From a virus, in the IMG/VR virus record IMGVR_UViG_3300042473_001540, positions 186,001-250,000 of that record: a stretch of DNA of 64,000 nt; one strand, 5' to 3'. Below are positions 7,468-33,817 of the stretch, piece by piece. Within the stretch, counting starts at the first letter, position 1, and every line of letters begins with the position of its first letter. The notes beneath the pieces were generated by a model. That model was not told where the DNA came from. It saw only the letters and a program-made list of their open reading frames with translations, and did not search any database. The translations under genes were made by a program, and so were the position numbers.

Positions 7468-7725
7468 GTGAGGAAGCTCACTCCAGATACTGCGGTGAAC
7501 CGCCGGCAATTTCCCTACTTTGTGCGAGTCGTCAACGTGAGTAATTTTTCGCACTACACGGAAATTTGCAGCTGGACTAAACAGCGTTGGGGCTCACCAA
7601 GTAGACTCCACAAAGACGCATTGTGGGCATGTCAGATTGAAACAAGCACTGCTGGAGAGCAGGAGATGTGGATTTGGTTCCGGCATGAAGATGACATGGT
7701 GCTGTTCTCTCTCACTTGGTGCTAG
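7468..7725 (+). CDS. LTW-family small protein (85 aa)
   Basis: First member in this window of a large paralogous family defined here by its C-terminus. It ends MWIWFRHEDDMVLFSLTWC, matching W-x-F-x3-D-D-x3-F-x-L-T-W, and carries the upstream N-terminal strand plus W-rich helix (CSWTKQRWG). GTG start at 7468, 3 bases after the preceding stop. It heads a tandem block of four family members. Confidence 0.7.
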   Translation: MRKLTPDTAVNRRQFPYFVRVVNVSNFSHYTEICSWTKQRWGSPSRLHKDALWACQIETSTAGEQEMWIWFRHEDDMVLFSLTWC

Positions 7726-7731
7726 GGCAAC

Positions 7732-7941
7732 ATGACAGACGTTGAAAGAGAACTAATCAACCTTGGGTTTGATATCCTCAAAGGCTGGCACAGTTGTCGA
7801 CTGAGCAGTCCGTTGCCTGATCAAAAATCCGTTTACAACTGGCTCAACACTACAGATGGCGGACGCTATTGGGTTGGTGTCATCTCCATTTATTTTGAAC
7901 GAGAAGAAGACATGATCCTGTTCCAGCTCACATGGTGTTGA
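7732..7941 (+). CDS. LTW-family small protein, WHSC subgroup (69 aa)
   Basis: Shares WHSCRL, NWLNTTDGGRYW and IYFEREEDMILFQLTWC with the next two genes, which makes these three the closest paralogs in the family. ATG 7732. Function unknown; no membrane segment. Confidence 0.7.
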   Translation: MTDVERELINLGFDILKGWHSCRLSSPLPDQKSVYNWLNTTDGGRYWVGVISIYFEREEDMILFQLTWC

Positions 7942-7957
7942 TTGGTAGGAAGAATAA

Positions 7958-8179
7958 ATGATCGATATTGATCAACAATACCCCAGCGACTACCACACTA
8001 ACCACACTAAAATCCAGGAATGGCATAGCTGTTCTATTCGCCAATTTGTTGGGCCTGATCGACATACCATCCTCCAGTGGCTCAAAACAACAGATGGTGG
8101 CCGCTTTTGGGAGGGCGGAACTCGAGTATGGTTTGAGAGAGAAGAAGACATGATCTTGTTCACGCTCACGTGGTCATAG
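7958..8179 (+). CDS. LTW-family small protein, WHSC subgroup (73 aa)
   Basis: WHSCSIRQF, WLKTTDGGRFW and VWFEREEDMILFTLTWS align without gaps to the previous gene except in the loop. The N-terminal 20 residues, rich in His, Thr and Asn, are not shared. Confidence 0.7.
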   Translation: MIDIDQQYPSDYHTNHTKIQEWHSCSIRQFVGPDRHTILQWLKTTDGGRFWEGGTRVWFEREEDMILFTLTWS

Positions 8180-8182
8180 CCC

Positions 8183-8413
8183 GTGCACGATATCGACAAC
8201 GACTATCTCGCCAAAGGTCACAACCAGAGACGTGACTACAGCATGCTGGACCAATGGCATCTCTGCCAAGTGAATTTCTCCGCCGTTAACGGAGACAAGA
8301 TGTTTAGTTGGCTTGACGCAGCACCTGGGGAACGGTATTATTGGACACGAGCTGGTAACATTTGGTTTGAGAGGGAAGAAGACATGCTCTTGTTCAAGCT
8401 CACATGGTGTTGA
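8183..8413 (+). CDS. LTW-family small protein, WHSC subgroup (76 aa)
   Basis: WHLCQVNF, SWLDAAPGERYYW and IWFEREEDMLLFKLTWC. The only start in register is GTG 8183, 3 bases after the previous stop. Last gene before a terminator hairpin. Confidence 0.7.
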   Translation: MHDIDNDYLAKGHNQRRDYSMLDQWHLCQVNFSAVNGDKMFSWLDAAPGERYYWTRAGNIWFEREEDMLLFKLTWC

Positions 8414-8512
8414 GGGATGCAAGCCGGCAAAGTGTCAGAGCATGGCACGCTTTTGCTCCCTGTTGCCATTCAAAGACGTGATAGTGATCAGCTGTTTCCA
8501 TCGTGCATAAAG

Positions 8513-8534
8513 CCTTGTTTGCTGTCAAACAAGG
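8513..8534 (+). terminator. Hairpin abutting the next promoter
   Basis: CCTTGTTTG pairs with CAAACAAGG (9 bp) around a 4-base loop, ending one base before the TTGACA at 8536. It would end the 6377-8413 transcript. Confidence 0.6.
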
Positions 8535-8535
8535 G

Positions 8536-8563
8536 TTGACACCCTGCCTAAATCTGCTATACT
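8536..8563 (+). promoter_or_regulatory. Early sigma70-type promoter
   Basis: TTGACA, 16-bp spacer, TATACT preceded by TGC. Confidence 0.8.
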
Positions 8564-8590
8564 CACCACACAAGGAAAGAGGACAAGTTG

Positions 8591-8971
8591 ATGAGCAACA
8601 AGCGAGCACTAGTTAAGCTGGGTCAGTTTATGATGCAGAGTGCTAGTAATTTTAAGTGCGATGTGACCTTCAACAAGTGGGCACGAGTAGGACAAGCACT
8701 TACTGAGCTGGACAGAATTTTTGCGCCGCAACTGCGCGAGTTTCCTGTAGAGGACCAACTGGTGGTGAAGTCTGCTGCGGCTGTGATGATGGGCAAGCTT
8801 GAAATGCCTGATATGCTGGTGCCTCGCGAGAGTATTCCTCGACGCACGCGTCGTGCTCGCATGACCCGGGTTATGAGCAAGAAGGAGCCCAAGGCTGCCA
8901 AGCCAACACTGTCCCAAGACAGTGTGGCGCCTCGCAAGCGTGGTCGACCCCGTAAAGTGGTGGCTGCATGA
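8591..8971 (+). CDS. Basic protein with C-terminal AT-hook (126 aa)
   Basis: 126 residues. The first 80 are helical. The C-terminal third is strongly basic and ends RKRGRPRKVV, a canonical AT-hook (G-R-P flanked by R/K) that binds the minor groove of AT-rich DNA. A second basic cluster (RRTRRARMTR) precedes it. It is therefore probably a DNA-binding or nucleoid-acting early protein. GAGGA precedes ATG 8591. The stop overlaps the next start (ATGA). Confidence 0.7.
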   Translation: MSNKRALVKLGQFMMQSASNFKCDVTFNKWARVGQALTELDRIFAPQLREFPVEDQLVVKSAAAVMMGKLEMPDMLVPRESIPRRTRRARMTRVMSKKEPKAAKPTLSQDSVAPRKRGRPRKVVAA

Positions 8972-9177: not shown

Positions 9178-9188
9178 GAAAACTGCAC

Positions 9189-10295: not shown

Positions 10296-10337
10296 AATCC
10301 ATAGTAGTTGACGTTGTGGAAAATCACAAATAACTTG

Positions 10338-10365
10338 TTGACAAAGATGTCGTCTGTCCTACACT
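10338..10365 (+). promoter_or_regulatory. Early sigma70-type promoter
   Basis: TTGACA, 16-bp spacer, TACACT. It ends 8 bases before ATG 10374. Confidence 0.65.
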
Positions 10366-10373
10366 GGAAGGAT

Positions 10374-10811
10374 ATGGAGAATCTTACAATGGGTAAATCA
10401 ACAAGTTGTGGTGTGGTGATAACTGACGGGAACAAGTTGGTTGTTGGGCATGTAACACGTGGTAAATGGTGGGACCTACCTAAAGGAGGCATGAACCCTG
10501 GAGAAAGCTTTCTTGAAGCTGCACTGAGGGAACTAAATGAAGAAACTGGTTTGGTAGTGGAAGACACCTCAGCCCTTACGCCTCTGGGCGTGTTCCTATA
10601 TAAGCCAAAAAAGGATCTAGTGCTGTATCTTTGGAAGGTCGAACAAATGCCAGACCCCACTTCCCTAGTCTGCAAGAGCACGTTTAAAGACTCCAAAGGT
10701 CGTGATGTCAAAGAATTGGATCAATTTAAAGTAGTCACCTGGCAAGAAGCTGCAAACTTAGTCAATCCAGATATGCAAAAAGTATTGAAAAAAGTAGAGA
10801 AGGAAATTTAA
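10374..10811 (+). CDS. Nudix hydrolase
   Basis: About 145 residues. The complete Nudix box G-x5-E-x7-R-E-L-x-E-E-x-G-L is visible (GGMNPGESFLEAALRELNEE, then TGL), so it should hydrolyse a nucleoside diphosphate linked to another group. The substrate (dNTP, NDP-sugar, NAD or RNA cap) cannot be told. Starts at 10374 or 10389 are both possible. It overlaps the next gene by one base. Confidence 0.9.
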   Translation: MENLTMGKSTSCGVVITDGNKLVVGHVTRGKWWDLPKGGMNPGESFLEAALRELNEETGLVVEDTSALTPLGVFLYKPKKDLVLYLWKVEQMPDPTSLVCKSTFKDSKGRDVKELDQFKVVTWQEAANLVNPDMQKVLKKVEKEI

Positions 10812-11107: not shown

Positions 11108-11214
11108 GATTGAGGTATGTGTTTTGAGCATGCCTGTCTGGTAGCTATGCAACTTGTTGATCGCATAAATCTAGTGTAAATATTGCAGTGCAACATAGAG
11201 AAAGAGAGAAAGCA

Positions 11215-11394: not shown

Positions 11395-11420
11395 GTGCTA
11401 GCCCACATCTAAGATAGTGC

Positions 11421-11448: not shown

Positions 11449-11450
11449 CC

Positions 11451-11480: not shown

Positions 11481-11492
11481 GATTACACTGGC

Positions 11493-11693
11493 ATGACACT
11501 TTCTCATTGTTACAACACACGGCTAATCAGGATGAGTATTCAAGAAGCCAACAGTCGTATCTGTTGGTGTGCTGATAATTTTGGTGACCGGGATATCAAG
11601 TGGACTGTGCGATGCCACGACAGAAGTCGTTATGAATGGTGGTTTACAAATAAGGATGATTTAATTTGGTTTGGCCTTGTTTGGGAAAGTTGA
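11493..11693 (+). CDS. LTW-family small protein, WC subgroup (66 aa)
   Basis: Shows the full plan of this subgroup: an N-terminal strand, then ICWCADNFGD (W-C-x3-F-G), then WWFTNKDDLIWFGLVWES. The C-terminus is a diverged LTW (L-V-W). ATG 11493 retains the shared N-terminal strand; ATG 11532 would lose it. Confidence 0.65.
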   Translation: MTLSHCYNTRLIRMSIQEANSRICWCADNFGDRDIKWTVRCHDRSRYEWWFTNKDDLIWFGLVWES

Positions 11694-12550: not shown

Positions 12551-12736
12551 ATGCAGAACCTGGGTGCAGAACTTTGGCCCCACAGAGTTGAAACTCTGGG
12601 GGGCAGTGATCAAGCTGGCATGCGTGGTTGGCTTGAGCGGAACGTGGACTGCACTGCTTGGTTCTTTGCAGCAGCCAATGTTGTGTATTTTTCGCACAAA
12701 GAAGATGCTATGCGATTCAGTTTGATTTGGACATGA
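12551..12736 (+). CDS. LTW-family small protein (61 aa)
   Basis: Ends VVYFSHKEDAMRFSLIWT. The N-terminal half is short, and the W-C motif is replaced by GMRGWLERN. Its stop overlaps the next start as ATGA, within the codons for the final Trp-Thr. This coupling recurs throughout the family. Confidence 0.65.
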   Translation: MQNLGAELWPHRVETLGGSDQAGMRGWLERNVDCTAWFFAAANVVYFSHKEDAMRFSLIWT

Positions 12737-12945
12737 AGTATTGGGCAGCAACCACGTTGGATGAGCCCAGACGTCAGGAAATGTCACGCTGGTGCAACCA
12801 AAGTTTTGGCTACACTGGGTGGATGGTTCACCCCCAGTTTGGGCAATGTGAGGAAGAATGCTATCTCAAATGGAGTTTTTGGTATCAAGCGGATGTTGTT
12901 CTTTTCACCTTGGTTTGGGATGTCGCTGCCAATGAAGATAAGTGA
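12733..12945 (+). CDS. LTW-family small protein, WC subgroup (70 aa)
   Basis: MKYWAATTLDE, then SRWCNQSFG, then WSFWYQADVVLFTLVW, with a 7-residue extension (DVAANEDK). Starts inside the stop of the preceding member and overlaps the next by 14 bases. Confidence 0.65.
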   Translation: MKYWAATTLDEPRRQEMSRWCNQSFGYTGWMVHPQFGQCEEECYLKWSFWYQADVVLFTLVWDVAANEDK

Positions 12946-13133
12946 ACCAACGTGGGACAAAATTATAGCCTATTACCAAACAAAATCTCACATAGATGAT
13001 TATAATTGGGCGAGCTTCAAACAGTGGGTATGTACAACCTATAACGTTGATAAAGTCTATTTGGGTGTTGAGGTTGAACTTGTTTTTTATCTCCCAAGAA
13101 GATGAGGCTGTGTTCGCATTAAGTTGGCTATAA
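12932..13133 (+). pseudogene. LTW-family copy split by a +1 shift in a T6 run
   Basis: In frame from ATG 12932 the protein stops at 13105 after VELVFYLPRR, without the signature. Skipping one T of the run at 13083-13088 continues as FISQEDEAVFALSWL and stops at 13133, directly before the next ATG at 13134. The shifted frame therefore restores both the family C-terminus and the tight packing. Causes could be a real mutation, a homopolymer sequencing error or programmed frameshifting. Confidence 0.7.
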
Positions 13134-13331
13134 ATGGGCCCTACACCGTGGAGCCACTTGCCTTATGAAGTTACCTTGCCCATCAACTCAGTTCACAATC
13201 TGTTGAAGATCAGCATCTGGTGCAACAACAACTTTGGTGACCAACCCATCAAATGGATGTATATTGGGCAAGGTCGCTGGTTGTTTCCTTCAGAGGAGCA
13301 AGCTGCTGAGTTTGCGTTGATTTGGACATGA
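13134..13331 (+). CDS. LTW-family small protein, WC subgroup (65 aa)
   Basis: LPYEVTLPINSVHNLL, then SIWCNNNFGDQP, then RWLFPSEEQAAEFALIWT. This copy shows the subgroup plan clearly: strand, W-C-x3-F-G helix, signature. ATG immediately follows the TAA of the shifted upstream copy. Confidence 0.65.
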   Translation: MGPTPWSHLPYEVTLPINSVHNLLKISIWCNNNFGDQPIKWMYIGQGRWLFPSEEQAAEFALIWT

Positions 13332-16519: not shown

Positions 16520-17731
16520 ATGAGCAAGTTCAGTTGCCCTGTGGTGCGTGTGGCCGCAGTCGAAGAACATCCGAATGCGGATCGCCTTTCTCTTGTGCGC
16601 CTTGAAGGCCTCGGTTATCTCTGCATCGCAAACAAACTAGAGGATGGTAGCCCGCGCTACAAGCCCGGTGACTGGGTCGTATACATTCCCTCAGCCTCGG
16701 TGCTGCCTGAATGGCTGCTCAAGGACATGGGATTTTGGAACGAAGACGCTGGTAAGGGTGTGCTGGCAGGCAGTGATGGCAACCGTGTGAAGCCACTCAA
16801 GCTGCGTGGTATTTTCAGCGAAGGTGTGCTGTATGGGCTCATTGCATATGGTGATGACGATTGCCTTTCTGCTGATTTTGGGTCGGCGACGGATGTACAT
16901 GTAGTAGGCAAAGACAGTCTTGAATATCCAGTCAAGCTAGGCGAGGATGCTGCTGCAATCTTGGGCATCACCAGGTGGGAGCCGCCCATTCCCGCTGCGA
17001 TGTCTGGTGAAGTTGCCAGTGTTGCTGAGGCTGCTCTTACCTACGATTTTCAGCGTTGGGAGAGCGTGCCTGACATCTTCGAACCTGGTGAGGTGGTGGT
17101 GGCCCAAGAAAAAATTCATGGATCTTGTACCATCATCCAGTACTTCCCAGGCATGGACCATCCCGAGATGTTCCCCGACCATGCAGGCTACCGCAGCATC
17201 ACTGTCAGCAGCAAGGGACTAGGCGGTCAGGGTTTGGTGTTCAAGAACAACGAAGCCAACGCCAACAACCTCTATGTGCGGGCACTTGGCACACTGCTAG
17301 CCGACCATGACCTCGCCGGGCTCCTCCACAGGATGAGCAAGGTGGACGGCGGTGCTCATCCGGTGGCTATCCTGGGAGAAGTTTTCGGCAAGGGCGTGCA
17401 GGACCTCGACTACGGCACCACTAAGCCCACGTTCCGGGTGTTCGACATGCGGATCGGGCGGGAGTGGCTAAGTCCCGATGCCGTGGCCTACTGGGCAAAG
17501 GACCTGCCCTGTGTACCTACCCTCTACACTGGCCCCTTTGACCAAACTGCCATTGAGGCTGTGAGAGACGGTGTCACAACGGTGGGTGGCACCAATGTGC
17601 GGGAAGGTGTGGTGGTGCGCAGCCTGGTTCCCACCGAGCATCCCCTGCACGGTAGGAAAATCTGCAAATTCATCTCTCCGGCGTATCTGCTCCGCCGAGT
17701 GAAGAACGGCGAGGCAACGGAGTTCAACTGA
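16520..17731 (+). CDS. RNA ligase, Rnl5 (DraRnl-like) type
   Basis: 403 residues. The N-terminal module (VRVAAVEEHPNADRL, then YKPGDWVVYIPSASVLPEWL) is the OB-like domain that precedes the ligase core in Deinococcus DraRnl homologs. The nucleotidyltransferase core follows with motif I K198-I-H-G (VVAQEKIHGSCTI), the FGKGVQDLDYG region, EGVVVRS (motif IV-like) and RKICKFISPAYLLRR with the motif V lysines. It should adenylylate and seal RNA 3'-OH/5'-phosphate nicks. A second copy of its last 29 codons occurs at 18149-18235, showing that a paralog once followed it. Confidence 0.85.
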   Translation: MSKFSCPVVRVAAVEEHPNADRLSLVRLEGLGYLCIANKLEDGSPRYKPGDWVVYIPSASVLPEWLLKDMGFWNEDAGKGVLAGSDGNRVKPLKLRGIFSEGVLYGLIAYGDDDCLSADFGSATDVHVVGKDSLEYPVKLGEDAAAILGITRWEPPIPAAMSGEVASVAEAALTYDFQRWESVPDIFEPGEVVVAQEKIHGSCTIIQYFPGMDHPEMFPDHAGYRSITVSSKGLGGQGLVFKNNEANANNLYVRALGTLLADHDLAGLLHRMSKVDGGAHPVAILGEVFGKGVQDLDYGTTKPTFRVFDMRIGREWLSPDAVAYWAKDLPCVPTLYTGPFDQTAIEAVRDGVTTVGGTNVREGVVVRSLVPTEHPLHGRKICKFISPAYLLRRVKNGEATEFN

Positions 17732-18247: not shown

Positions 18248-18526
18248 ATGACCGAAAACTATATTCTCTTGAAATGGGGCACACTCAAGGGCTATCGGGT
18301 AGCTGACAACCCTGTGGCGCAAGGTTTGATTAAACAGTACATGGAGTTGGGTGCCAGCGCCATGCACCAACAGGACACTCCCGAACAAAAACAAATCATA
18401 TGCGAACTGCTGCCTGCTCTGGCGTGCCCGCGCCGTGCCTTCCCCAACCCATACGACCCCACAGGGCTGCTGCACTGGATCGCAACCCAGGAGCCGGTCA
18501 TTCTCGGACGCGACCCCGCTGGCTAG
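18248..18526 (+). pseudogene. Phage hypothetical truncated at the GC-rich junction
   Basis: The first 55 or so residues (ILLKWGTLKGYRVADNP, then LGASAMHQQDTPEQKQIICE) match a common small phage protein with the L-K-W-G-T-L-K-G signature. From about 18410 the frame runs into GC-rich DNA and ends in an unrelated tail to 18526. The normal C-terminus of this family is missing. Confidence 0.7.
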
Positions 18527-19697
18527 CCGGCTGGCCATTTCAGGATGCCGCCATGTCACGCCGCTTTCTCGTTACCGGAGGTGCCGGCTTCGTCGGCAGC
18601 CATCTCGTCGCCGCCCTGCTGGACCAAGGCGCGGAGGTGGTGGTGTTCGACAACCTGCGCACCGGCCATCGCGAAGCCGTGCTCCCCGGCGCCACGCTGG
18701 TCACCGGCGCGCTGGAGGACCCCGATGCGATCGCGTCCGTGCTGGCGCAGGGGCCGTGGCATGCGGTGTTCCACTTCGCCGCGCTGTCGCTGGTGGGCGA
18801 TTCCATGCGCGACCCGATCGGCTATCTCTCGGCCAATGTCGGCAACGGCCTGCGCCTGTTGGAGGCCTGCGTGAAGCACGGCGTGCCCCGCTTCGTGTTC
18901 TCCTCCACCGCCGCCCTGTTCGGCACGCCAGACCGCATGCCGATCGACGAGGAAACCGCGATCGACCCCGGCTCACCCTACGGCGAAAGCAAATGGATGA
19001 TGGAGCGCGCGCTGGGCTGGGCCGAACGCATCCACGGCATGCGCTCCGCCTGCCTGCGCTACTTCAACGCCGCCGGCGCCGACCCGCAGGGCCGCCTGGG
19101 CGAGGACCACACGCCGGAAACCCATCTGATCCCGTTGGCCATCGACGCCATGCTCGGCCGTCGCGCCGAACTCGCCGTGTTTGGCACCGATTACGACACG
19201 CCGGACGGCACCTGCATCCGCGACTACATCCATGTCACCGACCTCGCCGCCGCCCACCTCGCGGCGCTGGAGCGGCTGGACCACGCCAGCGTCACCTACA
19301 ACCTCGGCACCGCCGCCGGGCATTCGGTGCTGGAGGTGATCCAGAGCGTGGAGCGCGTCAGCCGCCGCCCGGTGCCGCACCGCTTCGCCCCACGCCGCCC
19401 TGGCGACCCCGCCCGCCTTGTTGCCAGCCCGGCGCGGATCATGCGCGAAACCGGCTGGCAGCCGCGCCTCGCAGCACTGGATGACATCGTCGCCACCGCC
19501 CTGGCCTGGCGCGAAGCCCATCCGCGCGGCTACGGCGGATGAGTTACCGCATCCCGGCGCATCGGCCTGTGCGTGTTCTCAGAAGTGCATTTTTCACCTA
19601 CTTATGTCCTCATCCGCCCAGCCGCCGCAGCGAGGACCGCCACGCCATGAGCCAGCCTGCCGCGACCACGGTCGCCAAGAACCTGGGCGCATGACGC
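18415..19697 (+). other. GC-rich foreign segment carrying galE
   Basis: About 1.3 kb of visibly GC-rich DNA with strong G/C third positions, unlike everything else in the window. The left edge lies inside a truncated phage gene. The right edge lies inside a truncated LTW-family gene. No target-site duplication, terminal repeats or transposase could be seen. Either a horizontal insertion that replaced phage DNA or a chimeric assembly join. Edge positions are approximate (plus or minus 15 bases). Confidence 0.75.
18553..19542 (+). CDS. galE: UDP-glucose 4-epimerase (GalE), bacterial-type
   Basis: 329 residues, full length. Rossmann motif TGGAGFVGSHLV at residues 8-19, the SS-T-AALFG segment, catalytic Y-G-x-S-K (SPYGESKWMMERAL) and CLRYFNAAGADP are all present. 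It interconverts UDP-glucose and UDP-galactose for surface polysaccharide synthesis. Codon usage is that of a GC-rich bacterium rather than of this phage. No phage-type promoter precedes it, so expression from this position is doubtful. Confidence 0.9.
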   Translation: MSRRFLVTGGAGFVGSHLVAALLDQGAEVVVFDNLRTGHREAVLPGATLVTGALEDPDAIASVLAQGPWHAVFHFAALSLVGDSMRDPIGYLSANVGNGLRLLEACVKHGVPRFVFSSTAALFGTPDRMPIDEETAIDPGSPYGESKWMMERALGWAERIHGMRSACLRYFNAAGADPQGRLGEDHTPETHLIPLAIDAMLGRRAELAVFGTDYDTPDGTCIRDYIHVTDLAAAHLAALERLDHASVTYNLGTAAGHSVLEVIQSVERVSRRPVPHRFAPRRPGDPARLVASPARIMRETGWQPRLAALDDIVATALAWREAHPRGYGG

Positions 19698-19832
19698 TGG
19701 AAGTCCTGCATGGAGTTTCCCAACCAAGAAACTTATCTGCAATGTTTGCTCACATGGAGTTGACGGCATCTGTGAGTCTGTTGCGTGTGATACAATGTAC
19801 CAACACCCTCTCTATGGACGGAGATAAAAAGG
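19543..19832. other. Right junction region without an intact gene
   Basis: Bases 19543 to about 19697 continue the GC-rich foreign DNA, with a possible 15-codon frame beginning at 19647. From there the sequence returns to phage composition, with a gene fragment at 19698-19763. Bases 19764-19832 show no gene. Confidence 0.6.
19698..19763 (+). pseudogene. C-terminal fragment of an LTW-family gene
   Basis: Translates as WKSCMEFPNQETYLQCLLTW then Ser and stop, matching the family signature F-x-N-x-E-x4-x-L-L-T-W-S. No start or N-terminal half is present because the GC-rich segment abuts it. Confidence 0.75.
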
Positions 19833-19860
19833 TTGACACAGTCTGTCTGTGCTGTATATT
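19833..19860 (+). promoter_or_regulatory. Early sigma70-type promoter
   Basis: TTGACA, 16-bp spacer, TATATT preceded by TG. Confidence 0.8.
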
Positions 19861-19884
19861 GAAGCTACACAAGGAGAACAACAA

Positions 19885-20367
19885 ATGGAAGCCACGCCTG
19901 ATCTAGCTGTCTACGTGCTGGCCCGAACTGATCTGCCCAGTATGAACCCAGGAAAGCTGGCTGCACAAGTACATCATGCTGGAACCCAGATGATGAGCCT
20001 ATTTGCAGATCATCCACTAGTTCAACAGTATGTTGCCGACGGTGTCTCACAAGGTGCCTACTACTTCAACACCACAATTGTGCTGGGTGCCACAATGGAC
20101 CAGCTTCATGGTCTGAGATGCACTTATGGTTGGGAATACCACCTCACTGTCAAGGGGTCAGTCGTCGACCCCAGCTACCCATTTTTTGTGGAAAATCAAG
20201 AGGTAGCTGATCTTGTTGCAGCTAATGGCAAGGCAGCTGTCATCAAAACCATGGATGATGGGCGTGTGCTGATGACTCGCCAAGAGACCACTTGCATTTG
20301 GTGCCTTGTGGATCGCAACAAGCCCGAAGTTTCAGACATTCTAGGCCATCTCAAACTCTATCCCTAA
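19885..20367 (+). CDS. Pth2-like peptidyl-tRNA hydrolase fold protein
   Basis: 160 residues. The N-terminal segment VYVLARTDLPSMNPGKLAAQ followed by VHHA is the Pth2/PTH2-family signature (V-R-x-D-L-x-M-x-x-G-K-x-A-A-Q-x-x-H-A) containing the catalytic Lys and Gln/His region. The rest has the expected strands and a W-C-L-V-D-R-N-K-P-E-V helix. Pth2 enzymes release peptidyl groups from stalled peptidyl-tRNA. The DP or drop-off-rescue substrate of a phage version is unknown. AAGGAG sits 8 bases upstream of ATG 19885, and the promoter is strong. Confidence 0.7.
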   Translation: MEATPDLAVYVLARTDLPSMNPGKLAAQVHHAGTQMMSLFADHPLVQQYVADGVSQGAYYFNTTIVLGATMDQLHGLRCTYGWEYHLTVKGSVVDPSYPFFVENQEVADLVAANGKAAVIKTMDDGRVLMTRQETTCIWCLVDRNKPEVSDILGHLKLYP

Positions 20368-21690: not shown

Positions 21691-22028
21691 AATTGGGACA
21701 ACACCTACACCAACGCCAAATGCTGTTGGATCAAGAGCTGTTGAGAACCACGTTGTTGGCAGTGCAACGTGAGCGAGAACGTGTGCATGACCAGCACTAT
21801 GATCTGGAACGCTTTAAAAGCCAGATCATCAGTTGTGTTTTGGAAAATCGGCCCATGCTCATGTTTACTCCTGGAAATAACTGGACTGACCCTCAAAATC
21901 CTGAACACCCTCCACGTTTTGTGTGCCATCGAGACCACAAGTTATGGCAAGAGTTCCTAGTTTGGTTGGAAAGTGAACACATGGAAATCCAATACCATGG
22001 ATGGAATTTCACTGTGATAGCCAAGTGA
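21687..22028 (+). CDS. Unknown small protein (113 aa)
   Basis: 113 residues from GTG 21687, overlapping the previous stop as GTGA. The N-terminal 50 residues are a charged helix, the C-terminal half has WTDPQNPEHPPRF and ends in a beta strand (YHGWNFTVIAK) where an LTW signature might have been. Unknown function. Confidence 0.55.
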   Translation: MKLGQHLHQRQMLLDQELLRTTLLAVQRERERVHDQHYDLERFKSQIISCVLENRPMLMFTPGNNWTDPQNPEHPPRFVCHRDHKLWQEFLVWLESEHMEIQYHGWNFTVIAK

Positions 22029-22309
22029 CAGAAGACAGAGTCTTCCACAATGCGCTGCTTTTGTTTCCCAAAGATCTTTTCTGCTGCTCTGTTACACTTG
22101 GCGAGGAATACTACCGCCAACAATACGAAATCTTGGATTGGCTACGCCAACAAGGACCTGGTGACACTGGAATTGGTGATCCACCACAAGGTGAGTGCGT
22201 TTGGGCATATACACAGCTTTTTGGATACCAGTATATCGCTTTCCCCACTAGGGAACTGGTGACGCATTTTCAGCTGGTTTGGCAAAACAACACAGGACAT
22301 AGTGGTTGA
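22025..22309 (+). CDS. LTW-family-like protein (94 aa)
   Basis: From GTG 22025 (GTGA overlap). Ends YIAFPTRELVTHFQLVWQNN plus a short tail, a diverged but recognisable signature (F-x3-E-L-x3-F-x-L-V-W). The N-terminal half contains ILDWLRQQG in the position of the family W-helix. Confidence 0.55.
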   Translation: MTEDRVFHNALLLFPKDLFCCSVTLGEEYYRQQYEILDWLRQQGPGDTGIGDPPQGECVWAYTQLFGYQYIAFPTRELVTHFQLVWQNNTGHSG

Positions 22310-24456: not shown

Positions 24457-25674
24457 ATGCACTACACGTTTCCCGAGATCACGCACCTGGATCAAGTGCT
24501 GGAAGCTGTCCAGGGTGTGGAAGGCTTCATTGTAGCCCAGCGGCCCTGGGGCACTGTGGTCAACTACATTCAGATGGGCCCGGACATGTTCCCCGAGGTC
24601 CATACTGCTGGAGGCAGCGCCAGCATGCGCGAGCGGCAGACTCGACTCAAGGCTATCCGCCGGGAGTGTAGGGGGCTGCTGTTCAGCCTTGATGGAAAGT
24701 TGGTGAGCCGCGCATTTCAGAAGTTTTGGAACGTGGGCGAACGGCGCGAGACTTTGATTGAAAACATCGATCTCACTCAGCCACACATCATCCTTGAGAA
24801 GTTGGATGGAAGTATGATTCGTGCTCTACCTCTAGGTAAGGGCTACTGTCTTGCAACCAAGATGGGGCCCACTGCTGTAGCAGCACAGGTTGAGCCGTTC
24901 GTGGCAACTCGAGACAACTATGACCGATTTATCCGAGACACACTGGAGCAGGGATACACTGCCTGTTTCGAGTGGTGTACTCGTCAACAAAAGATTGTGT
25001 GTGATTATCCAGTTGATCGACTGGTGCTGACTGCTGTGCGTCACATCAACTCGGGTGAGTATCTCACCTACTCTCAGATGCAGGAACTGGCGGCCGAGTA
25101 TGAGCTGGATCTAGTCAAGGCCTATCCTGGTACTGTGGCTAGCATGGAGCAGCTCGTTCGGGAGACGCATGAGCTGGAAGGCGAGGAGGGGTGGATCATC
25201 CGGTGGGATGATGGACATATGGCCAAGTTGAAATCGGCCTGGTATGTGCGTATCCACCGTGCCAAGGATGCTCTCACGCAGGAGAAGAACCTCATCGACC
25301 TCATGCTGGCGGAAAAGCTGGACGACGTCAAGAGCTTTCTGCCTGTGGAGGACCTGGCTCGCATCGACGCCTACGAGAACGCCTTCTGGACGGGTGTGGG
25401 GCAAACTGCCTACATATGGAAGGACCAGTATGTCAAGCTCCGGCGGCAGTTTGGTGACGATAGAAAGCGGTTTGCACTGGAGGCAGCACCGGGTCTTGAG
25501 CCCAACCTGCGTAGTGCTGTGTTCAAGGTCTGGGCCCGTGAGGGCCACGTGGACTGGCGTGAGCTGGTGTGCGATGTGATCCGCAAATGCACTGGCACGC
25601 AGACCCGGGTGGACGAGGCACGCTCACTGTTCCGTGCGCCGCGGTGGAGCCAGCAAAGTGTGGGAGACGAATGA
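24457..25674 (+). CDS. RNA ligase, T4 Rnl1-like
   Basis: 405 residues. The core is complete. Upstream R-G-L-L-F (ECRGLLFSLDG) and FQKFWNVGE precede motif I K115-L-D-G-S (IILEKLDGSMI). Motif III-like FEWC and motif IV EGEEGWIIRW follow, then motif V MAKLKSAWYV. A C-terminal domain of about 130 residues corresponds in position to the tRNA-recognition domain of Rnl1. T4 Rnl1 reseals tRNA cut in the anticodon loop by host PrrC. It heads an operon with a small protein and four LTW paralogs. Confidence 0.85.
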   Translation: MHYTFPEITHLDQVLEAVQGVEGFIVAQRPWGTVVNYIQMGPDMFPEVHTAGGSASMRERQTRLKAIRRECRGLLFSLDGKLVSRAFQKFWNVGERRETLIENIDLTQPHIILEKLDGSMIRALPLGKGYCLATKMGPTAVAAQVEPFVATRDNYDRFIRDTLEQGYTACFEWCTRQQKIVCDYPVDRLVLTAVRHINSGEYLTYSQMQELAAEYELDLVKAYPGTVASMEQLVRETHELEGEEGWIIRWDDGHMAKLKSAWYVRIHRAKDALTQEKNLIDLMLAEKLDDVKSFLPVEDLARIDAYENAFWTGVGQTAYIWKDQYVKLRRQFGDDRKRFALEAAPGLEPNLRSAVFKVWAREGHVDWRELVCDVIRKCTGTQTRVDEARSLFRAPRWSQQSVGDE

Positions 25675-25865
25675 TGGCCTACAAAGGTGACACGGTGAAG
25701 TTTCGAGTGAGCAGTCCCAACGGCACTTGGCGCACAGTCTCCACGCTGGAAGAGGCTGAGCAAGAGATCAAAACTCTGGTGGACACCTATGGTGTGGCCT
25801 GGGCCGCAGTGGATAGGATTGAGACCACAAGGATCCTTGTTCGGCAAGTCAAGGCTGATGAGTGA
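25674..25865 (+). CDS. Unknown small protein (63 aa)
   Basis: 63 residues from ATG 25674 (or 25671, within the ligase stop). It has a compact beta-beta-alpha-beta pattern (KFRVSSPNGTWRTVSTLEEA) seen in small phage proteins. It lies between the ligase and the LTW cluster, so it probably shares the ligase transcript. Confidence 0.6.
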   Translation: MAYKGDTVKFRVSSPNGTWRTVSTLEEAEQEIKTLVDTYGVAWAAVDRIETTRILVRQVKADE

Positions 25866-26085
25866 CTCTTACCTTGTAACTTTGGTAGCGCCTATGTGCG
25901 ATGATTTTGATCAAGTGTGTGATTGGTGCATGCAACAATGGCCGTGTAAGGAGCGGCGCTGGCATATACACTGGGCTGGATTAACAACTAGAGGCAAGGG
26001 GTGGCAAATCACTTGCAGTTTCTGGCACCAAGATGATCTCACCATGTTCCTGCTCACATGGGCGCACCTGGTTGAATCTAGATAA
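25858..26085 (+). CDS. LTW-family small protein, WC/HLV subgroup (75 aa)
   Basis: Plan: SYLVTLVAPMCDD strand, CDWCMQQWP, then CSFWHQDDLTMFLLTWAHLV and ESR. The four copies in this cluster share an extra C-terminal H-L-V-(D/E). Starts in the end of the preceding gene. Confidence 0.7.
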   Translation: MSDSYLVTLVAPMCDDFDQVCDWCMQQWPCKERRWHIHWAGLTTRGKGWQITCSFWHQDDLTMFLLTWAHLVESR

Positions 26086-26098
26086 ACAGGCGATAGTG

Positions 26099-26338
26099 AT
26101 GGCTATACTGCCCTACACAGCCACATTGGTAGCACCCAAACTCCGGGAGCTTGACCAAGTTCAGGAATGGTGCCTACAAATGTGGCCTTGTACTCATCGA
26201 GCCACATGGTATCAAGATAATATGACAATGCAAGTATTTGCAAGGTTTGAATTCAAATGCACCTGGAGTTTTCAGTTTCGAGAAGATCTCACCATGTTCC
26301 TGCTGACCTGGAGTCATTTGGTGGACAGCCATGAGTGA
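26099..26338 (+). CDS. LTW-family small protein, WC/HLV subgroup (79 aa)
   Basis: PYTATLVAPKLRELDQVQEW, then CLQMWP, then WSFQFREDLTMFLLTWSHLV and DSHE. Very close to its neighbours in the C-terminal 25 residues, variable in the middle. ATG 26099 is used; GTG 26096 is adjacent. Confidence 0.7.
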   Translation: MAILPYTATLVAPKLRELDQVQEWCLQMWPCTHRATWYQDNMTMQVFARFEFKCTWSFQFREDLTMFLLTWSHLVDSHE

Positions 26339-26585
26339 TGCATATGTTGTGACAGTGATGGCTTACTCACTTGAAGAATTTATCCCAGTTTACAACTGGT
26401 GCTGCCGCATGTGGGGCGATACAAGCTTGTATCAGACTTGGTGTATGGGTTGGGCTAATTCAGATCTTTTGCGTGGAGTATATGTTTGCGATTGGGCTTT
26501 TCAACACAAGGATGATCTCATCATGTTTTTACTGACTTGGGGTCATTTGGTTGACTCTAGCCAAGAGGCAGAAAGTTGTGAATGA
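26331..26585 (+). CDS. LTW-family small protein, WC/HLV subgroup (84 aa)
   Basis: SDAYVVTVMAYSLEEFIPVY, then NWCCRMWG, then WAFQHKDDLIMFLLTWGHLV and DSSQEAESCE. Overlaps the previous gene by 8 bases and the next by 8. Confidence 0.7.
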   Translation: MSDAYVVTVMAYSLEEFIPVYNWCCRMWGDTSLYQTWCMGWANSDLLRGVYVCDWAFQHKDDLIMFLLTWGHLVDSSQEAESCE

Positions 26586-26854
26586 CAAGTTCAAGATAAC
26601 ATTGAGTGCCCACACAAAGGGAGAACTCGAAGCTGTGAATCTATGGTGCCAACAGTTGTGGCCAGGTGAGTGCGGGACAGTATGGGACAGCGGATGGCCA
26701 CTACCTACAACTTTTTTTTAGAGCAGGTGGCATCACTGCGTGGCGTTGCAGTTGGTGGTTGACACGCAGGGAAGATCATGCTATGTTCCTGTTGACATGG
26801 GCACATTTGGTAGAGCCGCCCCAGAATTACACAAGGTATCCTCAAAGTGAATAA
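26578..26854 (+). pseudogene. LTW-family copy split by a +1 shift in a T8 run
   Basis: From GTG 26578 the frame reads MNDKFKITLSAHTKGELEAV, NLWCQQLWP... and stops at 26721 just after a run of eight T (26712-26719). Skipping one T continues as RAGGITAWRC, then SWWLTRREDHAMFLLTWAHL and a tail, ending at 26854. Both halves match the neighbouring paralogs in order. Same direction of shift as at 13083-13088. Confidence 0.75.
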
Positions 26855-29412: not shown

Positions 29413-29428
29413 CACAAGGATTGAAGAA

Positions 29429-29704
29429 ATGAGCCAAGACTTGGACGACGATTGGGATTGGGAAGAATTTTTCCGTCAATTTCCCTGTGGTGCGGCTGTG
29501 ATTTTTGGTAACCATGTGGTGCATGCTGAGGGGTATCCTGAACCAGTCTCGGACATTGACGAAACTGAATTGCGCAAAGAGTTGGCAGAAGATCACGAGC
29601 TGGAACTGACCCTTCTCCGAGATTACTCAGTCATACGATTGGAAGGAGATAACTGGCGCCAGTTGATGCAGCAGTATGCAGGTGCAGATGGCACGCAGAA
29701 ATAA
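29429..29704 (+). CDS. Acidic protein, unknown (91 aa)
   Basis: 91 residues, very acidic N-terminus (MSQDLDDDWDWEEFFRQF) and a middle segment DIDETELRKELAEDHELELT. AAGGA 10 bases before ATG 29429. No family recognised. Confidence 0.6.
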   Translation: MSQDLDDDWDWEEFFRQFPCGAAVIFGNHVVHAEGYPEPVSDIDETELRKELAEDHELELTLLRDYSVIRLEGDNWRQLMQQYAGADGTQK

Positions 29705-29927
29705 GACGCCACAACGGATCAAACCCCGCCGAGGATGGCACCGCGTGGTGTTGCCCAATGTACCCAATCCTTGGCGTGAGTTACTGACGGGCATGCCATC
29801 AACTGTGTCAAAGATTGACGACTGGCTGGCAGAAAACACCTCTGGCAAATGTGAGCAGTTTCGCTACAACACATGGGACTTCAAACGCCAAGAAGATGCC
29901 CTGTTGTTTACCTTGACGTGGGGATAG
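29688..29927 (+). CDS. LTW-family small protein (79 aa)
   Basis: First of five contiguous family members. A basic N-terminus (RRNKTPQRIKPRRGWHR) is unique to this copy. KIDDWLAENT fills the helix position, and it ends TWDFKRQEDALLFTLTWG. ATG 29688 overlaps the preceding gene by 17 bases. Confidence 0.65.
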   Translation: MARRNKTPQRIKPRRGWHRVVLPNVPNPWRELLTGMPSTVSKIDDWLAENTSGKCEQFRYNTWDFKRQEDALLFTLTWG

Positions 29928-29928
29928 C

Positions 29929-30264
29929 ATGGAAATAAAAATCACCAAACAAACTGTCCTTGCCCCTGTGCGTAAGTTGAGCGCAACTTGGACAATGGAA
30001 AAACCACAAACATTGAAACACACTGTGAGCGATGAGATCGAGCAACTTATCCAGGAAGAGATCAACAGTGAAATTTTAGCCGAAATATATCGAGTCCAAG
30101 GATGGTATCTTGTACCCCTCACTGCTCACAGCGTCTGGACAAAAGGCGCAGTGACGCCATGGCTCTTGGAACATTACCCAGATGGTGGTTACTATCTCTT
30201 CACTGGTGGTTGCATGTTCCGGGACAAAGAGATGGCTGTGGAGTTTGAGCTCACATGGACATAA
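29929..30264 (+). CDS. LTW-family protein with a capsid-like N-terminal module (111 aa)
   Basis: The C-terminal 50 residues are LTW-family (VTPWLLEHYP, then MFRDKEMAVEFELTWT). The N-terminal 60 contain VRKLSATWTMEKPQTLKH and IEQLIQEEINSEILAEIYR. This order (R-K-L-x-A-T-W-T-x-E, then E-I-x-x-E-I-L-x-E-I) resembles a conserved segment of T4-type major capsid protein gp23. If so, this is a fusion of a capsid fragment to a family domain, which could interfere with or regulate capsid assembly. The capsid match is from memory and unverified. Confidence 0.5.
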   Translation: MEIKITKQTVLAPVRKLSATWTMEKPQTLKHTVSDEIEQLIQEEINSEILAEIYRVQGWYLVPLTAHSVWTKGAVTPWLLEHYPDGGYYLFTGGCMFRDKEMAVEFELTWT

Positions 30265-30467
30265 TACCCAAGTTCAGTTTCCTGCATCGTGTGGAATATC
30301 GGGATCTGCCCGAAGACCCGAGAGTTATGAACTATGGAGAATCTCGCACACAAATGATCATATGGTGCTGGAAAAATCTTCCTTTGAGCGATTGGTCGCA
30401 TGACCCCTTGGGTATTGATTTCAAGCATCAAGAAGGTCTCATGCAGTTTATGTTAACGTGGACATGA
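30255..30467 (+). CDS. LTW-family small protein (70 aa)
   Basis: MIIWCWKNLPLSDWSHD in the helix region, then IDFKHQEGLMQFMLTWT. The ATG lies in the final LTW codons of the preceding gene (ACATGG). Confidence 0.65.
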   Translation: MDIIPKFSFLHRVEYRDLPEDPRVMNYGESRTQMIIWCWKNLPLSDWSHDPLGIDFKHQEGLMQFMLTWT

Positions 30468-30685
30468 TTGTTACCAAGTGCTTGCCCGGCGGTGGATGGT
30501 ATGCCGAAGTCATGCTGGACGATAGTGAATGGCCACCAATTGATGAAAATGACCAATGGTTAGACAGACCCATTCGACGTTGGGTAAGAGAACACACTGA
30601 GGGAGCACATTTTTTCAGTTTTAGGGGAACAATACTGTTCAGTAACGAAAGTGATCTCACAGCGTTTGTGGTCTCTTGGTCATAA
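30464..30685 (+). CDS. LTW-family small protein (73 aa)
   Basis: ATGA overlap with the previous copy. IRRWVREHTEGAHF in the helix region and ILFSNESDLTAFVVSWS at the end, so L-T-W has drifted to V-S-W. Confidence 0.6.
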   Translation: MIVTKCLPGGGWYAEVMLDDSEWPPIDENDQWLDRPIRRWVREHTEGAHFFSFRGTILFSNESDLTAFVVSWS

Positions 30686-30933
30686 CACGTAGAGTGGCCC
30701 GCTTTTTGGAAAAGGAGAAGGATCCTCTCTACCCTTATCCGGTTGTGTTTGACAACATGGAAGTCTCTGAGGCTGAAATACTTCGAGCCTGGCTAAGACA
30801 GCATGGTGGCCGAGAAAACGAGGATTGGGCTTGGACTCATGGATGGTGGGGAGATACCGTTCACTGTTTTAGGTTTCGAGATCCTTGCACAGCAGAGTTT
30901 TTCCGCTTGACTTGGCACCCAACAAGCGTATAG
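30676..30933 (+). CDS. LTW-family small protein (85 aa, TTG start)
   Basis: ILRAWLRQHGG, then CFRFRDPCTAEFFRLTWHPT. No ATG is available; TTG 30676 lies within the Ser-Trp codons ending the previous gene. Carries a short extension after LTW. Confidence 0.55.
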   Translation: MVITRRVARFLEKEKDPLYPYPVVFDNMEVSEAEILRAWLRQHGGRENEDWAWTHGWWGDTVHCFRFRDPCTAEFFRLTWHPTSV

Positions 30934-30940
30934 TTGCAGT

Positions 30941-31108: not shown

Positions 31109-31523
31109 TCCCAAAACTGTTTGGCACGAGGATGGAACCAGCCCAGTTCCTGGCTCGCGTGTATTTGTTTTTGGCAGCAATCTCGCTGGCATTCACGGTG
31201 CCGGAGCGGCCCGGGAGGCTGCCGCTAAATTTGGTGCCCTGTATGGTTGCGGCCATGGCTGGCAACCTCTCAATCAAAGCTATGCCATTCCCACCAAGGA
31301 CCGTCGAATCCACACCCTAGCTTTGGATGAGATCAAACTCTATATTGATGAATTTGTGCGACTCACACAAAGCCCGTTTGTTATGAATAGTGGTTATTGG
31401 GTCACCCGAGTGGGCTGTGGCCTAGCTGGTTACCAAGACCACGACATTGCACCATTGTTCCGTGGCGCAGTAAATTGCAGTTTTCCTTTGCCTTGGCGCC
31501 AGTATTTGGAGCTTGAGACTTGA
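31095..31523 (+). CDS. Macro-like phage protein (A1S_2505-like)
   Basis: 142 residues. VFVFGSNLAGIHGAGAAREA, AIPTKD, and VTRVGCGLAGYQDHDIAPLF form the full pattern of a family frequent in phages that resembles macro domains (G-S-N-x-x-G-x-H-G-x-G-A-A and G-C-G-x-A-G-Y). Macro domains bind or hydrolyse ADP-ribose derivatives. In this window an ADP-ribosyltransferase candidate is also present, so a writer/eraser relation is possible but unproven. Confidence 0.7.
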   Translation: MNTNNPKTVWHEDGTSPVPGSRVFVFGSNLAGIHGAGAAREAAAKFGALYGCGHGWQPLNQSYAIPTKDRRIHTLALDEIKLYIDEFVRLTQSPFVMNSGYWVTRVGCGLAGYQDHDIAPLFRGAVNCSFPLPWRQYLELET

Positions 31524-31828
31524 TTGACATAGCTTTTCCTAATAGCCGCATTGGGCACTACATGCGGGTCACAAAGAGGTCTGGAAAGTGGGTGATGCAA
31601 CAAAGCTACATTGCACTGATTCACAAAATCGCCACCACCGAAGACTGCTATTACCTTGACTTCTACAAAAGCCGAGATAATGCCACAATGCTGGAGTGGT
31701 GCCAAAACGCATGGGGTCCGCCAGAGGTTGGTGAAACATGGTGGCAAAAGCTCACTGGGCAAGCTCAACTCACACTTGTGATACGTGGCGAAGAGCGTGT
31801 CACGCAATGGCAACTAACCTGGGAGTAA
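31520..31828 (+). CDS. LTW-family-like protein (102 aa)
   Basis: TTG start overlapping the previous stop (TTGA), or ATG 31562. Ends LVIRGEERVTQWQLTWE, with MLEWCQNAWG in the W-C helix position, which places it in the WC subgroup with a longer middle. Confidence 0.55.
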   Translation: MIDIAFPNSRIGHYMRVTKRSGKWVMQQSYIALIHKIATTEDCYYLDFYKSRDNATMLEWCQNAWGPPEVGETWWQKLTGQAQLTLVIRGEERVTQWQLTWE

Positions 31829-31832
31829 GCCA

Positions 31833-32120
31833 ATGAGCAGTGAATATCAGCATTTGAAAACTCTTGCATCGGAAATTTTCCGGCTGATGGGCGAGGAGAG
31901 TTTCACAGAGATAGACAGCATCTTGAGCAATATGCAGCCTACACTTCAAACAGAAGTAGAGATGGTGGCACTGCTACGCTACAGTTTTACAGCTCGGCAT
32001 CATCTCACCTGTTACCATATCTATCTTGACGCAGTAGCACAGGAATTGCTGCGTCGTGGCAAAGATGTGGAGAGGATTTTGCAGGGACTGCCCTTCTACA
32101 GCATCGATAGGTATCCATGA
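31833..32120 (+). CDS. Helical protein, unknown (95 aa)
   Basis: 95 residues, all helical (LKTLASEIFRLMGEESFTEI...). The paired helices with A-x-x-x-L-R-R-G at the end resemble small phage helical bundles. Stop overlaps the next ATG. Confidence 0.6.
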   Translation: MSSEYQHLKTLASEIFRLMGEESFTEIDSILSNMQPTLQTEVEMVALLRYSFTARHHLTCYHIYLDAVAQELLRRGKDVERILQGLPFYSIDRYP

Positions 32121-32383
32121 GTCAGCAGGCTGCGCAGACTAGGGAGGCACATTTGTTGAATCACCAACCAGTTGACTGGGCAGATGATGTGATGGGGTTT
32201 CCCTACGCAGTCGCATGCAAGGTCACAGTGGTGGATTTGTGGCTTCGAACCAACTGGTGCAAGCAAAACATTGGCTGCTGGTTGGTAGATTGGACTCACA
32301 CATATGATAACCACCGGCAGGTGTATTGGTACTGTTTCTCTAGTCAGGAGCAATTGACACAGTTTCAACTCACATGGTGTTGA
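32117..32383 (+). CDS. LTW-family small protein (88 aa)
   Basis: YAVACKVTVVDLWL strand, TNWCKQNIG (W-C helix), YWYCFSSQEQLTQFQLTWC. ATGA overlap with the gene before. Confidence 0.65.
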   Translation: MSQQAAQTREAHLLNHQPVDWADDVMGFPYAVACKVTVVDLWLRTNWCKQNIGCWLVDWTHTYDNHRQVYWYCFSSQEQLTQFQLTWC

Positions 32384-32408
32384 ACGTTTCACAAGAAGGA
32401 AGGAACAG

Positions 32409-32651
32409 GTGATTCGTATGGTTTTGCAGAAAATTTATCAACAAAATCAATGGTATGATAGCTTAAGTGGACATTACGTGCACCCCTACAAAGTTCCTGT
32501 TGTTTCTCACGCCCCAAGCGGTTGCATTCGCCCGGGACATCTATTGGGTTATACTTTTCTCAGGCACTCCTATGTTCCTCTATCTCATGTGGGGCTTATG
32601 GCACTGTGGCGCTTTCCGTATGTGATCAAGAACAAGCGTCAGCAACGTTGA
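32409..32651 (+). CDS. Unknown basic protein (80 aa)
   Basis: 80 residues from GTG 32409, with GGAAGGA just upstream. Rich in His, Tyr and Pro (SGHYVHPYKVPVVSHAPSG), basic end (KNKRQQR). No family recognised. Confidence 0.55.
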   Translation: MIRMVLQKIYQQNQWYDSLSGHYVHPYKVPVVSHAPSGCIRPGHLLGYTFLRHSYVPLSHVGLMALWRFPYVIKNKRQQR

Positions 32652-32678
32652 CACACAACAACAATCCGTTACTATAAT
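32648..32678 (+). promoter_or_regulatory. Early sigma70-type promoter
   Basis: TTGACA, then TACTAT after 16 bp or TATAAT after 19 bp. Confidence 0.6.
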
Positions 32679-32697
32679 ATTACAAAAGGAGACTACT

Positions 32698-33069
32698 ATG
32701 CGAATTCAGGTGCCATTCAAGCCAGGCTACCGTTTCTGGAGCCCGCGTGTGCTCCGTCGAAGCGAGCTGGTCACCATCACGCATGAGTGCAAGGAGTATT
32801 CTCGGCGAGAAGAAACTCTTGAGATCAGTGCCCGGCACAAGGAGATCACCAGTGTTGAAATCACACTGAACCAAACTGGTGAGTCCAAGTTTCGCTATTG
32901 GGCTGTGACTGTGGGAAAGACAATGGCTATACACACTCTTGTTGATCCCTATTCGGGATTCAGCAATGAGCAAGATGCAACAGAGTTCGCTCGTCTCTGG
33001 CGAGATACACAGAGCACTGAATATTTTGGTAGCCCAATTGGCGAGTGCCATGATTACGACCATGAGTGA
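32698..33069 (+). CDS. Unknown protein, distant LTW relation possible (123 aa)
   Basis: Beta-rich start (MRIQVPFKPGYRFWSPRVLR), EYSRREETLEISARHKEI, then GFSNEQDATEFARLWRDTQ. That last stretch matches the family pattern F-x-N-E-x-D-A-x-x-F-x-x-x-W but sits before a 20-residue tail. AAAGGAG precedes ATG 32698. Confidence 0.5.
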   Translation: MRIQVPFKPGYRFWSPRVLRRSELVTITHECKEYSRREETLEISARHKEITSVEITLNQTGESKFRYWAVTVGKTMAIHTLVDPYSGFSNEQDATEFARLWRDTQSTEYFGSPIGECHDYDHE

Positions 33070-33262
33070 CGAAGTCATCAATTATGTGATTGCACGTCCT
33101 TGGGATACTCAAGAGCCCAACAATCTCTGCATCTATCACTTGCACAGTGAAGTGCATCGTGGCACAATAGAGGATGCAATGCTGACCTTGTCTCGTGTGC
33201 AACAGAGTAATCCTGGTTTTGAATATGAGGTATATGAGGTGTTTTACAGGAAGTTAAGTTGA
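33062..33262 (+). CDS. Small beta-alpha-beta protein, unknown (66 aa)
   Basis: 66 residues from ATG 33062. The pattern (VIARPWDTQEPNNLCIYHLH, a helix ending TLSRVQQ, then YEVYEVFYRKL) is typical of tiny phage proteins in which a helix is packed on a two-stranded sheet. Stop overlaps the next ATG. Confidence 0.55.
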   Translation: MSDEVINYVIARPWDTQEPNNLCIYHLHSEVHRGTIEDAMLTLSRVQQSNPGFEYEVYEVFYRKLS

Positions 33263-33537
33263 TGGGTTGGTTTGATAACTGCACAAAGGTTTGTCTATCG
33301 GGCCAAATACCCTGTAACTGTGATTTCATGCCGGGTCAGCAGGTGTTTCTCACAAGCAAGGACAGAGATCGTCATGCTGAAGACTATGCAAGTAGGAAAA
33401 CCAATTGGAGTGCGCCTTTTGAACCTTGGGTTGTGGAAACATGGCGCAGGTGTAGTGAAGCAACAGGCGCAGACAAAGTTGCCCAGAAAGTGCGTGACCG
33501 TTTGACCAACAGGCCTGTCTTTGCCAAACGACCTTAA
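33262..33537 (+). CDS. Unknown Cys-containing protein (91 aa)
   Basis: 91 residues. N-terminal CTKVCLSGQIPCNCDF (four Cys in 13 residues) suggests a zinc or disulfide site. The rest is basic with EPWVVETWRRCSEATG. Unknown function. Confidence 0.55.
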   Translation: MGWFDNCTKVCLSGQIPCNCDFMPGQQVFLTSKDRDRHAEDYASRKTNWSAPFEPWVVETWRRCSEATGADKVAQKVRDRLTNRPVFAKRP

Positions 33538-33817
33538 TACCTGCTGTATTTTTGAATTTCCTATGGGAGGTGTTACCAGCTGGGTAGTGCGGTTGCCCAA
33601 CAGCACCAACGGCCACGAACCCCAAGTAGTCAATTGGCTAATTGAGAGATTTGGCATCGACGATCACGAATATTGGACAAAAATCTTCAACCAGAAGAGA
33701 GAGACGCCCAACAGCCTTTGGAAACGAGGCAGCATCTGCACCTATGTGTATCAGGAATACTGGTTCACCAACAGAGATGATGCATTTGAGACCTATTTGG
33801 TGTTCTCAAAAATTTAA
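33521..33817 (+). CDS. LTW-family-like diverged protein (98 aa, TTG start)
   Basis: VVNWLIERFGIDD corresponds to the helix, and EYWFTNRDDAFETYLVFSKI to the signature with L-V-F in place of L-T-W. The TTG at 33521 overlaps the previous gene by 17 bases; ATG 33563 would remove the N-terminal strand. Confidence 0.5.
   Translation: MPNDLNTCCIFEFPMGGVTSWVVRLPNSTNGHEPQVVNWLIERFGIDDHEYWTKIFNQKRETPNSLWKRGSICTYVYQEYWFTNRDDAFETYLVFSKI

Follow-up and report, generated by a model that had tools for sequence, protein, structure and literature searches.

A small, apparently phage-specific protein domain present in dozens of diverged copies in T4-like jumbo phages

Bases 186001-250000 of the 309,756-base virus record IMGVR_UViG_3300042473_001540 (64,000 nucleotides, hereafter the window) belong to a jumbo phage and carry tandem clusters of small paralogous proteins that share a C-terminal signature ending in LTW. 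Judged by its gp6- and gp25-type baseplate genes, the phage falls among the T4-like jumbo phages, and its closest relatives in the isolate collection are Sinorhizobium phage Phosso and Agrobacterium phage Atu_ph07 (~40% identity over gp6). When we scanned the DNA for the pattern F-x3-E-D-x3-F-x-L-T-W with one mismatch allowed, we obtained 12 matches in the window, all on the plus strand, compared with a mean of 0.01 and a maximum of 1 in dinucleotide shuffles. A family profile, seeded with the clearest copies and iterated over every stop-to-stop open reading frame (ORF) of the record, identified 34 members at an expectation value (E) of ≤0.01, with 22 of them in the window; a separate search of the record returned 31 members at E ≤ 0.1. 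The 22 take in the C-terminal part of one of two frameshifted copies; the other frameshifted copy and a truncated C terminus at 19695 bring the window total to 24 places. The signature noticed in a first-pass annotation of the window is therefore real, and the copies listed there were confirmed, but the family is larger than that list: another 12 copies lie outside the window. Its members are ~60 to 110 residues long, soluble, and mostly acidic.

Small tryptophan-rich ORFs might resemble one another by chance, and an iterated profile might drift. A loose version of our profile did drift into W-rich proteins of RCC1-like repeats, drawing in six of them at the fourth iteration, and these were excluded because their Pfam match marked them as unrelated. 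They are encoded in tandem outside the window (record 104764-113557), each ~450 residues long and built of the repeat WxWGxNxxGxLGDNT; a single ancient repeat origin of the family from such proteins was considered and dropped. Chance likeness is contradicted by the excess of motif matches (12 versus 0.01 expected) and by nearly empty decoys: reversed and shuffled sequences gave one match below 0.01 for the looser model and none at E ≤ 0.1 for models of the N-terminal and C-terminal parts. It is also contradicted by a structure prediction of high confidence when the family alignment is supplied (mean predicted local distance difference test [pLDDT] of 92) and by ratios of nonsynonymous to synonymous substitution (dN/dS) below 0.4 between orthologues. 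We regard a statistical illusion as refuted.

All copies in the window are on the plus strand, and the E values given here are those of the iterated profile. The first tandem run opens with a member of 85 residues at 7468-7725 (E 1.3e-11) and continues with members of 69 residues at 7732-7941 (E 2.3e-10; 54% identity to the next copy), 73 residues at 7958-8179 (E 5.9e-9), and 76 residues at 8183-8413 (E 5.7e-10). Beyond a 66-residue member of the WC subgroup at 11493-11693 (E 1.1e-10) come a 61-residue member at 12551-12736 (E 1.3e-7) that shares 4 bases with the start of the next gene, a 70-residue member at 12733-12945 (E 7.3e-9), a frameshifted copy at 12932-13133, and a 65-residue member at 13134-13331 (E 5.9e-11). 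A divergent member of ~94 residues lies at 22025-22309 (E 9.4e-6). The second four-copy run starts with 75 residues at 25858-26085 (E 2.9e-10), followed by 79 residues at 26099-26338 (E 8.3e-10), 84 residues at 26331-26585 (E 1.3e-11), the last 18 of them an extension after LLTW, and a frameshifted copy at 26578-26854. As the first-pass annotation had supposed, both frameshifted copies are split between two frames: the earlier has its N-terminal part in one frame and its C-terminal part, FFISQEDEAVFALSWL, in another (C-terminal ORF E 0.1), and the later has its N-terminal part from 26578 and its C-terminal part within 26666-26854 (C-terminal ORF E 1.6e-4). Five further copies are packed between 29688 and 30933, with 79 residues at 29688-29927 (E 8.2e-11), a divergent 111 at 29929-30264 (E 2.2e-5), 70 at 30255-30467, overlapping neighbors on both sides (E 1.3e-10), a divergent 73 at 30464-30685 (E 1.9e-4), and 85 with a TTG start at 30676-30933 (E 1.2e-6). 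Downstream are a divergent member of 102 residues at 31520-31828 (E 3e-5), one of 88 at 32117-32383 (E 5.9e-10), and one of 98 with a TTG start at 33521-33817, which was listed from the outset and does belong, but is the weakest of all (E 0.0029). An isolated member of 67 residues lies at 59437-59640 (E 2.9e-10).

A fragment first placed at 19698 is indeed a fragment, more exactly a truncated C terminus, RWKSCMEFPNQETYLQCLLTWS, that runs from 19695 to 19763 and adjoins a galE-type gene. That gene lies in a GC-rich segment (~70%) at window 18400-19690, encodes an intact UDP-glucose epimerase-type protein, most closely resembles the galE gene on Azospirillum plasmids (DNA identity 74%), and is also carried by contigs of the same phage from other assemblies. 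These features suggest an alphaproteobacterial host and a recent gene capture. The 12 copies outside the window map to record positions 28.7, 49.6-50.0 (minus strand), 84.5, 133-134.4, 262.3, 273.6, and 276.1-276.6 kb, and two of them are on the minus strand. There, at record 47946-49995, a small run holds two clear and two marginal members; the remaining copies are plus-strand.

The first-pass annotation contrasted a constant stretch of 18 C-terminal residues with widely varying N-terminal halves and interpreted the signature as a fixed docking or degradation tail. Our alignments and structure models speak instead for conservation of the protein as a whole. In the family alignment, conservation is not confined to those 18 residues, since a central W and the W-C/L pair of helix 1 match the tail in this respect, and tail conservation is itself inflated because most of the aligned sequences were gathered via the C-terminal pattern. 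When profiles of the N-terminal part (first 31 columns) and the C-terminal part (last 16) were tested on stretches of Phosso and Atu_ph07 not used in building them, 11 ORFs were matched by both at E ≤ 0.1, where 0.18 would be expected, and in nine of the 11 the parts stood in the right order. AlphaFold2, supplied with the family alignment, predicts a compact beta-alpha-beta-beta-alpha domain for the protein at 13134 (mean pLDDT 92), and the divergent protein at 7958 is predicted with the same order of elements (E-H-E-E-H; pLDDT 75). The shared fold that had been proposed as a check on the family is thus predicted for two divergent members. The signature corresponds to the third and last strand plus the last helix of this predicted domain, and its constancy would follow from its place in the folding core.

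A different possibility is that all copies share one partner, on which they dock via the constant strand-helix segment, or are degraded via this segment, with the rest of the protein free to vary. Beyond its presumed core-facing residues, helix 2 has further positions that are hydrophobic and conserved (alignment columns 41, 42, and 45), which would allow an exposed common interface, self-association included. However, the signature segment is integral to the compact fold in two models, helix 1 and the central strand are equally conserved, and at least 3 residues follow the motif W in 11 of 33 of the genome's own members. Furthermore, the presence of a phage ClpP does not follow the family: the window phage has 34 copies and no ClpP, whereas GAP32 has ClpP and no copies. 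Because of this mismatch and the length of the tails, the idea of a C-terminal degron was set aside, and we consider it unlikely that the copies converge on a single partner. The final W is absent from the members in Atu_ph07 and Pseudomonas phage PA5oct, and LTW is a flavor of the window phage's lineage.

The claim of repeated duplication with strong diversification was borne out. Gaps within the tandem runs (four copies at 7468-8413, four at 25858-26854, and five at 29688-30933) are tiny or replaced by overlaps, and identity between paralogues is often 20-30%. In a related contig, L033, one copy occupies the syntenic place of the second four-copy run, and the genes on either side of it are orthologous to those flanking the run in the window. 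The member at 26099 is nearest to this single copy (dN/dS 0.36), and the member at 29688 has an L033 orthologue that is 76% identical (dN/dS 0.38); several copies from the cluster at 29.9-32.4 kb have no clear orthologue in L033. Across the genome, the nearest relative lies in another phage for 21 of the 34 members and in the same genome for 13, which makes much of the repertoire older than the window phage. On these comparisons, the paralogue set is both old and still changing. For comparison with the two orthologue ratios, three flanking genes gave 0.19-0.23 and a fourth gave 0.59; as far as a few short genes can indicate, the members appear to be functional and under somewhat relaxed, not overall diversifying, selection.

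Jumbo phages are already known to amplify small genes in tandem: phages G and 121Q are reported to carry arrays of >30 similar genes (Hua et al. 2017, PMC5646251), and Bacillus phage G has a zinc ribbon in ~35 copies (Iyer et al. 2021, PMC7824862). The arrays resemble our family in the tandem duplication of small genes, but those examined in 121Q comprise other families, whereas here the copies have diverged, are scattered over many clusters, and belong to a family found in many phages. Two tandem arrays of small paralogues lie in 121Q at 133.4-134.8 kb and 155.9-160.5 kb (7 and 15 members, respectively). None of the 121Q array groups (the 15- and 7-member groups of small proteins and an RCC1-like group of 18 ORFs) matched the family, and the best 121Q ORF (E 0.018) lies outside the arrays. 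The zinc ribbon, too, is one small domain in dozens of copies per phage, but its expansion concerns a single phage, and the family described here is a W- and F-rich beta-alpha-beta-beta-alpha domain with no conserved set of metal-binding cysteines.

The family appears to be specific to phages and to be found across the T4-like jumbo phage group related to Atu_ph07, Phosso, and PA5oct. A pattern scan of IMG/VR found 93 stretches, and iteration expanded these to 288 non-redundant members. Among 15 contig records searched at E ≤ 0.01, 13 had between 12 and 57 matches and the other two had 5 and 1; two records (G007 and G012) represent the same phage as the window and have 28 matches each. At such numbers, one mini-domain accounts for a considerable share of these genomes. 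Phosso (PV764938) has 44 matches, or ~6% of its annotated genes, Atu_ph07 (NC_042013) has 7 weaker ones, and PA5oct (MK797984) has three clear and two weak copies. In these three phages the copies are annotated merely as hypothetical proteins and cluster among hypothetical, nucleotide-metabolism, and Clp/chaperone genes. They were detected only by profile searches of those records; a tblastn search of 50,697 phage records, with members queried singly or joined, turned up no isolate. At least two family-like ORFs of Atu_ph07, those at ~347322-347696 and ~294067-294501, were missed by its annotation, the second overlapping the annotated gene gp392 on the opposite strand. Profile searches of GAP32, BF, Vibrio phage 2.275, CBB, XbC2, and 121Q, which include Rak2-type phages, gave no family matches, and a stricter pattern found just two isolated places in 84,980 bacterial and archaeal genomes. 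Searches of Pfam, PHROGs, NCBIfam, and PADLOC with 53 members gave a best E of 0.01, and no family there drew a match from two or more members. Profile searches of Protein Data Bank (PDB) sequences and Foldseek searches of PDB structures likewise produced nothing better than E 0.4 and E 1.8 (probabilities ≤0.21), respectively. By structure comparison, the models did match one Atu_ph07 protein (probability 0.99) and ~40 proteins from uncultured Caudovirales labeled "uncharacterized"; a further fold search returned such viral matches again. In the openly available literature searched, we did not find the family, its fold, its size, or its spread over this phage group described.

Copies of this one domain are present by the dozen in a genome, and the paralogues might form mixed oligomers that serve one collective role, such as coating nucleic acid, building a compartment, or acting as a scaffold, so that copy number would supply both dosage and variety. 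Polycistronic and often overlapping genes would suit co-production, and an aromatic-rich composition (5.7% W in the family domains) fits as well. We nevertheless think it quite unlikely, given that members differ so strongly from one another in sequence and in charge (isoelectric points from 4.2 to 10.3) and that related phages manage with anything from 3-5 copies (PA5oct) to 57.

The genomic setting bears on where the proteins act. In the window, the family genes occupy the strand opposite the structural module, which runs on the minus strand and includes a gene for a 4017-residue structural protein (42993-55046) followed by the gp6- and gp25-type baseplate genes. The family clusters are interleaved with RNA-repair, tRNA, and nucleotide genes, namely those for RlaP, Nudix, two RNA ligases, PTH2, a kinase-phosphatase, and Thg1, and a gene for an SPFH protein is also among the neighbors. 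The RNA-repair and tRNA set lies at window 5429-6316, 10308-10811, 16520-17731, 19849-20367, 24457-25674, 36181-37413, and 61022-61894. In phage T4, RNA-repair genes counter host defenses that cut tRNA (the PrrC / Pnkp-Rnl1 pathway). The family could also consist of proteins that reside in the virion or are ejected into the cell together with the phage DNA, as T4 internal proteins are. Among the Atu_ph07 virion proteins (131 detected, PMC6102473) are many of no known function, and gp038, a weak family candidate, falls within its virion-protein cluster (CDS 31-76). However, gp255 and gp258 of Atu_ph07 are outside the main virion clusters, the window genes are separated from the structural module, and in PA5oct no family member bears the note of detection by electrospray ionization tandem mass spectrometry that many neighboring genes do. 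A place in the virion is therefore improbable in our judgment.

We favor, at slightly less than an even chance, the explanation that these are early or middle accessory proteins in which one fold presents varied surfaces to different host targets. Early or middle expression is an inference with which strand and gene neighborhood agree. Small, soluble, single-domain proteins would have been multiplied by tandem duplication and then diverged. Their folding core would be formed by the conserved aromatics, that is, W-C/L of helix 1, the central W, and F-x3-E-D-A-x2-F-x-L-x-W of strand 3 and helix 2, leaving the variable first strand and the loops as the working surface. The host protein bound may differ from copy to copy, or may be the same protein in different variants, and such binding could contribute to takeover of the cell or block a defense. 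As hosts change, new copies would arise by duplication, and unused ones would decay into frameshifted and truncated copies such as those in the window. The family resembles the general class of small host-takeover and anti-defense proteins of phages in being small, phage-only, clustered, quickly diverging, and apparently nonstructural; it differs in the unusually large number of copies of a single fold.

Several observations weigh against the proposal of accessory proteins with different host targets. We found no conserved catalytic pattern and no known anti-defense signature among the members, and a PADLOC search was empty, its library being one of defense systems rather than anti-defense. 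In a promoter scan, promoter-like sites were no more common than chance, and early transcription is thus not shown. Overall selection is purifying rather than diversifying. In addition, virion proteomics can readily overlook small proteins. A binding scaffold with a constant core and a variable surface would nonetheless be the most economical model. The broader idea, that an undescribed compact fold has become an all-purpose binding scaffold, multiplied by a group of jumbo phages to engage dozens of host targets per genome, is offered tentatively and is, on balance, rather doubtful.

For most genes of jumbo phages no function is known, and they are treated as orphans unrelated to one another. 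Our findings suggest that 34 orphans of one phage, and at least 44 annotated genes of Phosso (~6%), are versions of one small domain, which reduces many unconnected unknowns to a single question open to testing, with Phosso in Sinorhizobium as a culturable model. Some giant phage genomes would then grow in part by the amplification of a single scaffold. If the copies do act on different host targets, the family may represent a large source of new anti-defense and host-takeover proteins.

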